Part shown: positions 13,035 through 53,615 of the stretch, piece after piece
How the letters are laid out: each line of letters starts with the position of its first letter
Numbering within the stretch: position 1 is the first letter of the stretch
From: Euhalothece natronophila Z-M001
GTDB taxonomy: Bacteria; Cyanobacteriota; Cyanobacteriia; Cyanobacteriales; Rubidibacteraceae
DNA length: 64,000 nucleotides
Reading direction: 5' to 3'
Assembly (NCBI RefSeq): GCF_007904085.1
Contig: NZ_CP042326.1
Span: forward strand, 186,001-250,000
Position numbers and translations under genes: made by a program
Notes under the pieces: model-generated
Databases searched by the model: none
What the model saw: only the letters and a program-made list of their open reading frames with translations
What the model was told of the DNA's origin: nothing

Positions 13035-13148
13035 TTAAAATTTGTTACATGGAATCTAACAAATTCTGTTGCATACCGATCCCCCCTTCGCCCCTCTTAC
13101 TAAGGGCAGGGCTGTTTCATTCTCGGGGTTAAAATTGAAAGTAATCGC

Positions 13149-13380
13149 CTGAAACCCTTACATAGTAGGGAAATCGCGATTATTTTTTCTGATTTAACTT
13201 CTTCTTAAGAAAAAGGGGCTAAATTGCTTTCTTTTCCTAAAGTCTAGAATGAAGCACAAACCTGGAAGGGGATTTTGTCTCCCCATCTCCCTATCTCCCC
13301 ACCTCCCCACATGAGGGGAATTTCAGGAGAATGAAACGACCCTGGGGGGATTGGGGGGGATCGTCTAGTAGTGCTAGTTT
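13149..13380 (+). repeat. dispersed repeat R1, copy 1 (uninterrupted)
   Basis: About 232 bp, from GAAACCCTTACA to CTAGTAGTGCTAG. It matches the reverse complement of 53283-53615 along its whole length, including CTTCTTCTTAAGAAAAAG, GTCTAGAA, GTCTCCCCATCTCCC and ATTTCAGGAGAA. The 53-kb copy contains about 106 extra bases (a MITE) that this copy lacks. This element fills most of the gap between the GST gene and tocopherol cyclase; no gene was seen there. Confidence 0.8.
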
Positions 13381-13396
13381 ATCGAAATGTTATTAA

Positions 13397-14575
<1,179 letters not shown>

Positions 14576-41832: not shown

Positions 41833-41874
41833 CCCTTGTAGAATCTTGACAAAAAGTCACCTTTAGCGGTGATT

Positions 41875-41981
41875 TATAGTCGTTCCAATTCAGTTCCGTA
41901 GTGCAGCCATCTTGGCTACTACTAGGGAGCAAGATGCTCCCACTACTTTTAGGTTGCTGTTTTTTATTTGGAATCACTATA
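41875..41981. mobile_element. TTCCAA-type MITE, copy 1
   Basis: A 107-bp element between rmlC and rmlA with inverted ends TATAGTCGTTCCAA and TTGGAATCACTATA. Its ends match those of the 106-bp insert at 53427-53532. The TA at each edge suits a TA target duplication. The remaining gap to rmlA (41982-42128) holds no gene. Confidence 0.75.
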
Positions 41982-42128
41982 CATCGTATTAACCTGTGGT
42001 ATAGATAACGCCGACGTTGCTAGGAAATCTCCAAGGGAAAAGAAGCAGGAAGTGGACATCAGACCTTTATCAGGTTTCTAGGAACTATGATAAGTTTGAG
42101 TAAGTTCCTCATAACGGACTGATGGAGC

Positions 42129-52193: not shown

Positions 52194-52904
52194 ATGGTTA
52201 ATCTATCTCCTCAGTTTTTCAAGCAGTCAATGGAAGTGCAAGAAATTGCGATTACTCTTGTTGTTAAGGGCTTGAATCCAGCAATGTTGACGTTAGAAAA
52301 TTGTCATGCTTGGGGGGTGATTCCCGAAGACTGGGAATTATCGAAGAATCCTATGATCAGTTCACAACAAGCCCGCTTAAATTTCAAAAATGGGGTTAAT
52401 GTTATGGCAAAACCCCATCAAATTAATTTTGCTGAACCGATTCCTGTAAAGGGGGTGGAGGGGATGAAGTTTGCGGCGGTTGCCAAGCAATTTGTGGATC
52501 AATTGACACAGGTAAACTATCAGCAGCTCCGCATTGAACCAAGACTCATTATTGTGTTTAATCATCAAGAGAATGATCTAAGGAATTATCCCCGTGAGTT
52601 TATTTTAGATTATTTGATGGCTTCAGGGCCTTGGTTAAATGTGGGTGAGCGCTCTCCTCAGATTGCGGTTAATTTTACATATCAGTTTCCAGAGTATCAA
52701 TTGCAATTAAATATTCAAGAAGGATATTCCCAACAAAGTAATCAGTCATCTGTGCGAGGTTTGGTTTTTTCTGGGAGTTTTATTTATCCGATTAATGAGA
52801 AGAAAAGCCGAGAGTCTATAAAGGGTGAAATTGATACTTGGAGCAATCAGCTTAATCAATTTCAAACAATTGTGAAGGAGCAATTTTTGGGGAAAAAAGG
52901 TTAA
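52194..52904 (+). CDS. hypothetical protein of unknown function
   Basis: Not recognised. A 236-residue soluble protein: LSPQFFKQSMEVQEIAITLV at the start, then LENCHAWGVIPEDWELSKNP, a central region with mixed strands (FAEPIPVKGVEGMKFAAVAK, LRIEPRLIIVF), then FQFPEYQLQLNIQEGY-like strands and a helical end. The layout recalls proteins that pair two beta-rich halves. No signal peptide or membrane segment. It starts 29 bp after the right end of the TnpB element and is followed by a tandem MITE array. Confidence 0.6.
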   Translation: MVNLSPQFFKQSMEVQEIAITLVVKGLNPAMLTLENCHAWGVIPEDWELSKNPMISSQQARLNFKNGVNVMAKPHQINFAEPIPVKGVEGMKFAAVAKQFVDQLTQVNYQQLRIEPRLIIVFNHQENDLRNYPREFILDYLMASGPWLNVGERSPQIAVNFTYQFPEYQLQLNIQEGYSQQSNQSSVRGLVFSGSFIYPINEKKSRESIKGEIDTWSNQLNQFQTIVKEQFLGKKG

Positions 52905-52912
52905 GTGTGATT

Positions 52913-53282
52913 TCATTAGATCCCCCCTAACCCCCCTTATTAAAGGGGGGGAACGAAGGTGAAAGTTTACAACTGATTTAGGATTACTAGATAACAGTTT
53001 TCATACTATTGCTATAGCAAGATGATTTGGTTGGTAAAAAGTAGTTGTAAGTTTCGATCCCCCCTAACCCCCCTTATTAAAGGGGGGAACTAAGGTGCAG
53101 GTTTACAACTGAATTAGGATTACTAGATAACAGTTTTCATACTATAGCAAGATGATTTGGTTGGTAAAAAGTAGTTGTAAGTTTCGATCCCCCCTAACCC
53201 CCCTTATTAAAGGGGGGAACGAAGGTGCAGGTTTACAACTGAATTAGGATTGCTAGATAACAGTTTTCATACTATTGCTATG
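52913..53282. repeat. tandem array of a 130-bp MITE-like unit
   Basis: Units starting TATAGCAAGATGATTTGGTT occur at 53013 and 53143, exactly 130 bp apart, ending at 53282; a partial unit fills 52913-53012. Each has a GATCCCCCCTAACCCCCC / TTATTAAAGGGGGG hairpin and TTTACAACTGAATTAGGATT. They are relatives of the TATAGCAAT MITEs at 31.5 and 50.3 kb. Confidence 0.85.
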
Positions 53283-53615
53283 AACTAGTGCTACTAGAGG
53301 ATCCCCCTAACCCACCAGGGTTGTTTCTTTCTCCTGAAATTCTTCTCAGGTGGGGAGATTGGGGGACAAGGGAGATGGGGAGACAAAAGGTGTTTCTAGC
53401 TTGGTTTGTGCTTTGTTCTAGACTTGATAGTTATTCCAATTTAGTGCCGTACACTTCCTAGTTTGTCATTTAACAGCAGATTAGGGAGTTTTAGAAATTT
53501 AATTCTGTCAGTTTTTATTGGGAATGATTATAGAAAAGAAAAGTAATTTAGTCGCTTTTTCTTAAGAAGAAGTGAAATTAGGGAAAATAATCGCCCCACC
53601 CTGTAAGGGTTTCAG
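53283..53615 (-). repeat. dispersed repeat R1, copy 2 (interrupted)
   Basis: The reverse complement of 13149-13380 with 106 additional bases inside (53427-53532). Shared blocks include AACTAGTGCTACTAG at its left edge, GTCTCCCCATCTCCC, CTTCTTCTTAAGAAAAAG and GAAACCCTTACAG. Confidence 0.8.
53427..53532. mobile_element. TTCCAA-type MITE, copy 2, nested in R1
   Basis: Bounded by ATAGTTATTCCAA and TTGGGAATGATTATAG-like inverted ends matching the element at 41875-41981. Removing it restores the continuity of R1 copy 1 at 13149-13380, leaving a TA at the joint. Confidence 0.8.

Follow-up and report, generated by a model that had tools for sequence, protein, structure and literature searches.

An old IS630-type MITE joined to TA within a MITE-like repeat of Euhalothece natronophila Z-M001

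The repeat R1 occurs twice in the window analysed here (64,000 nucleotides, positions 186,001 to 250,000 of contig NZ_CP042326.1 of Euhalothece natronophila Z-M001), and one copy carries about a hundred bases that the other does not have. This raises the question whether the extra DNA came in or was lost elsewhere and, if it came in, what it is and which enzyme moved it. R1 copy 1, which has ISAs1-type ends and represents the empty site, lies at 13106–13345 on the plus strand (limits set by eye). Copy 2 is inverted relative to it and was matched to it by blastn in two blocks with an unmatched stretch between them, 13240–13398 with 53425–53264 (78% identity) and 13149–13236 with 53615–53533 (81%). 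It comprises one half at 53264–53425 and another at 53533–53615, both on the minus strand; the second is truncated at its outer end, and copy 2 lacks roughly 43 bases from the beginning of the repeat, including one outer end, as measured from the start of homology at 13149 and the by-eye start of R1 at 13106. Read by eye against copy 1, the filled site is GA, element, TA. An earlier reading made from the sequence only had described 106 bases (53427–53532) absent from copy 1. The absence is confirmed, and the element proper is delimited to exactly 53428–53530 (103 bp, plus strand). This insert has inverted ends TAGTTATTCC and TAATCATTCC, contains no transposase gene, and is bordered by GA at 53426–53427 and TA at 53531–53532.

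R1 copies from the whole genome were compared across this site. With half of R1 copy 2 and the adjoining flank as the query, the genome search gave at least 37 matches (40 of 62 candidates scored), a few of which are neighbouring tandem repeats and not R1, and 13 R1-containing pieces, both window copies included, were aligned. Window copy 1 and three others (L064, L066 and L067) run across the site without a gap, and all four have TA at the joint. Taken with the IS-like ends of the additional bases, this continuity establishes that copy 2 carries an insertion. The sequence-only reading had taken insert-free copies that also lack the flanking blocks as a sign of deletion; the four insert-free copies keep both blocks, in agreement with the order it proposed, R1 first and the insert later. 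Its placing of the insertion at TA is likewise supported by the joint in the four copies, and a TA does remain on the right, although the left target copy now reads GA, which we interpret as a decayed TA. The converse, that the original R1 contained these bases and the other copies have lost them, could draw on the deletions that span the site in six aligned copies (L072, L074, L075, L076, L083 and L086), but those deletions take away R1 on both sides as well. It has almost no probability left against four copies that read straight through with TA at the joint and extra bases that bear both ends of an IS630-type element. Another piece in the alignment, L007, is a partial R1 copy, and in L015 R1 is interrupted at a different point, at TTAA, by a young MITE described below, with window copy 1 as the empty counterpart.

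The insert shares its ends with a transposase-coding element. This element (L113), located in the congener G005, is 920 bp long, and its facing TATAGTCATTCCAA ends enclose two overlapping ORFs, similar to PF01710 (HTH_Tnp_IS630, E = 1e-36) and PF13358 (DDE_3, E = 2e-32) respectively. ORF2 exceeds the cut-off of the NCBIfam IS630 model (112.3 versus 100 bits), while ORF1 alone is far under it (19.8 versus 100 bits). An eight-A run lies where the two frames overlap, and the two ORFs are probably joined by programmed frameshifting. The two ends of L113 are identical at 17 of their first 18 bases and then diverge. The 30-bp ends of the insert match the corresponding L113 ends at 26/30 and 25/30 positions, compared with 16/30 and 17/30 when the ends are crossed; none of 20,000 mononucleotide shuffles reached 26/30 or 25/30. 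This match bears out the earlier attribution of the insertion to IS630/Tc1-type transposition. A trace of the transposase gene persists in one end block: the L113 ORF ends with VYGT-stop, the insert reads VYGT at the same place (53428–53456, minus strand), and the 103-bp element at 41877–41979, considered below, reads YGT. Judged by its ends, the insert may have originated from such an element by internal deletion.

ORF2 matches at E ≤ 1e-30 were found in 26 of 100 genomes, Z-M001 not among them; G005 was the only one of five congeners to have any. Thirty loci with ORF2 relatives, L113 included, were inspected. Facing TATAG ends 904–983 bp apart were present at 18 of them and absent from 12, some of the latter being cut by contig ends; TATAGT..TTCCAA at both ends was seen at the L113 place only. 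In a genome contig collection, 235 stretches matched the search pattern for ORF2 and none was confirmed. Two further genomes, G097 (L195 and L202) and G081 (L191 and L196, a single place), have the same end beside coding DNA that is 62–78% identical to the L113 transposase; G081 belongs to the same order as Z-M001, and Cyanobacteria bacterium UBA2566 bears the same ends.

The sequence-only reading had matched the ends of the insert to an independent element at 41875–41981. That element is confirmed and is as long as the insert, 103 bp at 41877–41979 (plus strand) plus two TA copies at 41875–41876 and 41980–41981. It belongs to a young, high-copy subfamily. The pattern TATAGTNNTTCCAAWTMA, which describes the ends of this subfamily, occurs 96 times in the Z-M001 genome (0 times for the reversed control) and is present in 16 of 99 other genomes searched. 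Ninety of the 96 ends pair up face to face. The pairs span 107 bp in 42 cases, and the remaining three of the 45 measure 109, 110 and 1252 bp. Forty-six copies with both ends were recovered, 28 of which are identical, and the window copy differs from these by one base; the set required the pattern at both ends and leaves out L051, L093, L094, L096 and L098. A direct search with the 41877 element, in which 40 of 68 candidates were scored, gives a lower bound on copy number. Six ends (L093–L098) are unpaired. In four of these cases the second end of a MITE copy has changed, and L094 and L096 have no good second end inside the fetched stretch. The L095 copy differs at 23 positions and is old.

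Insertion of the young element at TA with duplication can be read directly: the window has GTGATT-TA-[element]-TA-CATCG, compared with GTGAGT-TA-CATCG in two copies (L171 and L177) of the same repeat in the congener G001, orthology not being implied. Nineteen of the 46 insertions lie at TTAA, a context that accounts for 13.7% of TA sites across the window (binomial, 4e-6); this bias may be overstated since the background is the whole window and not intergenic DNA only. The host repeat of the window copy (41850–41876 and 41980–42124; GCGGTGA..TACATCG..GCCGACGTTGCTAGG..CATAACGG) has nine matches of about 140 bp in G001 (81–89% identity) and seven in G003 (79–86%); Rfam at gathering thresholds gave no match over the whole window, this repeat included. 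The 1252-bp pair corresponds to a resident IS630 of group B, which has nine DDE_3 places of equal score, inserted in a young MITE copy (L051 1297–2548; G000:C1:2950009–2951260). As the IS630 sits within the MITE, that MITE copy predates the group B jump. The 41877 element had no match in plasmid and phage collections, from which records near this genome may be left out.

One could suppose that the insert and the 41877 element are a single recently active MITE family and that the insertion into R1 is recent. Both are 103 bp long with ends of one kind, which agree at 20/28 and 18/28 positions, and even the middles are slightly more alike than expected by chance (19/47, reached by 1.5% of shuffles). 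The insert, however, occurs in full at a single place in the genome, as against 28 identical copies among the 46 of the young subfamily, and one of its target copies is decayed, so that this supposition is very improbable. The similarity of the ends reported earlier stands; the middles place the two in different subfamilies. The elements at 53428 and 41877 have their ends in common and hardly their bodies, and are neither one MITE nor of one age. Searching the 3.52-Mb genome (5 contigs) for the insert returned a single complete copy and a partial match of 39 bp, the latter directly adjoining a young MITE at C1:2726796; there was no match at E ≤ 0.001 in 59 other genomes, in each of which up to 14 candidates were scored. 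The insertion is old, because one TA has decayed, no other full copy was found in the genome, and its ends are 83–87% identical to those of the nearest full-length relative; the insert is a singleton in a subfamily of its own and not part of the recent burst. The two stretches also differ in folding. At 41875–41981 the DNA folds far better than shuffles (z = −4.3), whereas 53425–53533 folds no better (z = 0.4), and a strong hairpin is therefore no feature of the insert. The middle of the young MITE consists of two hairpins, AGCC..GGCT and GGGAGCA..TGCTCCC, the second of which was counted 48 times near a MITE end and never elsewhere in the Z-M001 DNA examined, by a loose test.

Which transposase moves these elements was examined among the resident enzymes. 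The Z-M001 genome has 31 DDE_3 matches. L113 ORF2 gave seven matches only, at 31% identity and all in group A, an IS630 group with other ends; this search found no transposase of the L113 lineage in the genome. The IS630-type element that shares the ends of the insert is thus known from a congener, and none was found in Z-M001 itself. Among the 45 facing pairs, none encloses a gene except for the group B interruption. The resident IS630 groups A (350-aa ORF), B (196-aa) and C (269-aa) were rejected as partners, their ends being different once the element limits were worked out, as were the single DDE_3 loci L040–L044, L054 and L055, with a best end match to the MITE of 15/20. Barring gaps in the genome copy or an enzyme too diverged for these searches, the burst of young elements is currently an orphan.

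These results give some room to the proposal that a resident IS630 group with dissimilar ends, and not an L113-like transposase, mobilised the MITE ends. The young subfamily expanded recently in a genome with 31 DDE_3 matches and no L113-like transposase found, and in the resident group L040, L044 and L055 one end agrees with one MITE end at 14/20 positions. On the other hand, both ends of the insert match L113 far better, and groups A, B and C have ends unlike those of the MITE. We consider this proposal unlikely for the ends in general. For the recent burst taken separately, the transposase of a resident IS630 with other ends, or a plasmid- or phage-borne transposase since lost, is a somewhat better, still tentative, candidate. 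If the enzyme has indeed been lost, high-copy MITEs would be a record of vanished enzymes.

Our preferred reading, to which we assign a probability of roughly 0.93, is that the 103-bp insert is an old IS630-type MITE, mobilised in trans and joined to a TA inside the MITE-like R1. The insert would consist of two ends of the IS630 family (Tc1/mariner type) from between which nearly all of the transposase gene has gone. A transposase supplied in trans would have bound these ends and cut the element out, and the excised element would have been joined to a TA in R1, with duplication of the TA. The cut-and-paste reaction was presumably carried out by an enzyme of the L113 type. One of the target TAs would later have decayed to GA, and a related subfamily with ends of the same kind, represented at 41877–41979, has spread recently. 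Among the findings that sit less well with this reading is that just one of the two target copies is still an intact TA.

The host of the insert appears to have a transposon ancestry of its own. Three ORFs in the Z-M001 genome match PF13808, which we take to be the marker of ISAs1 transposases. In the elements that surround these ORFs, both ends read GCAGGGCTGTTTCATTCT; R1 has this sequence at one end, and its other end in window copy 1 shows two changes relative to it. The R1 end CAGGGCTGTTTCATTCTC matches the two ends of L182 at 18/18 and 17/18 positions, and L183 and L184 behave likewise. R1 shares this end with the ISAs1-like elements and differs from them in being only about 240 bp long with no coding content noticed. 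Target duplications in the ISAs1 family are of 8–10 bp. Direct repeats of 10 bp were seen by eye on both sides of R1 copies L064 (TTAATAAAGG) and L066 (TTAATAAGCG); none was seen around window copy 1. On these sequence features R1 is most plausibly a MITE-like element derived from an ISAs1-type IS. Since R1 appears to be MITE-like itself, with ISAs1-type ends, the nested arrangement observed in copy 2 is that of a MITE in a MITE.

Nezha, a cyanobacterial MITE as is the insert, is IS630-related and has a TA duplication; the likeness is one of description, lengths and ends aside. MITEs of cyanobacteria have already been published, as a review indicates (PMC10969869). In a search at the level of titles we found no paper evidently describing the present end type, which is no proof of absence. 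The closest parallel for mechanism is ISY100 (ISTcSa) of Synechocystis PCC6803, an element of the IS630/Tc1/mariner group which is described as choosing TA and duplicating it (34 of 39 products were normal), with ends of 24 bp and mini-elements that are no less active than the whole element when they retain 30 bp per end (PMC2170065). ISY100 resembles the insert and L113 in its TA target and duplication, short inverted ends and cyanobacterial host, and L113 in size (947 versus 920 bp); it differs in coding for its own 282-aa transposase, whereas the insert codes for none and L113 has two overlapping frames (PMC2170065). The insertion is essentially ordinary transposon biology, by a mechanism known from ISY100. 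As a natural record, the locus documents the behaviour of IS630-type MITEs in a cyanobacterium with unusual completeness: filled sites can be set beside empty ones, the target preference is visible, transposase codons remain at the element's end, and a sister species holds a full-length relative. The orphan burst is a good system in which to ask who moves a MITE that has lost its own enzyme.

Related elements were observed in other genomes. In G014 (for example C10:2578–2705), 262 ends of the same motif were counted, many of them facing at 128 bp, and a MITE burst of this kind on a larger scale is probable there. G014 also has seven matches to L113 ORF2, with no intact end pair at the two ORF2 loci inspected. 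In the filamentous cyanobacterium ESFC-1, MITEs of 129–131 bp (L186, L190, L192 and L194) have L113-like ends and another middle. Within the window, 52900–53282 holds tandem repeats of about 130–136 bp with GATCCCCCCTAACCCCCC and TTTACAACTGAATTAGGATT; a further resident IS630 (L040 and L044) has ends, TATAGCAATCCTAAATCAGTTGTAAA, that TTTACAACTGAATTAGGATT resembles.
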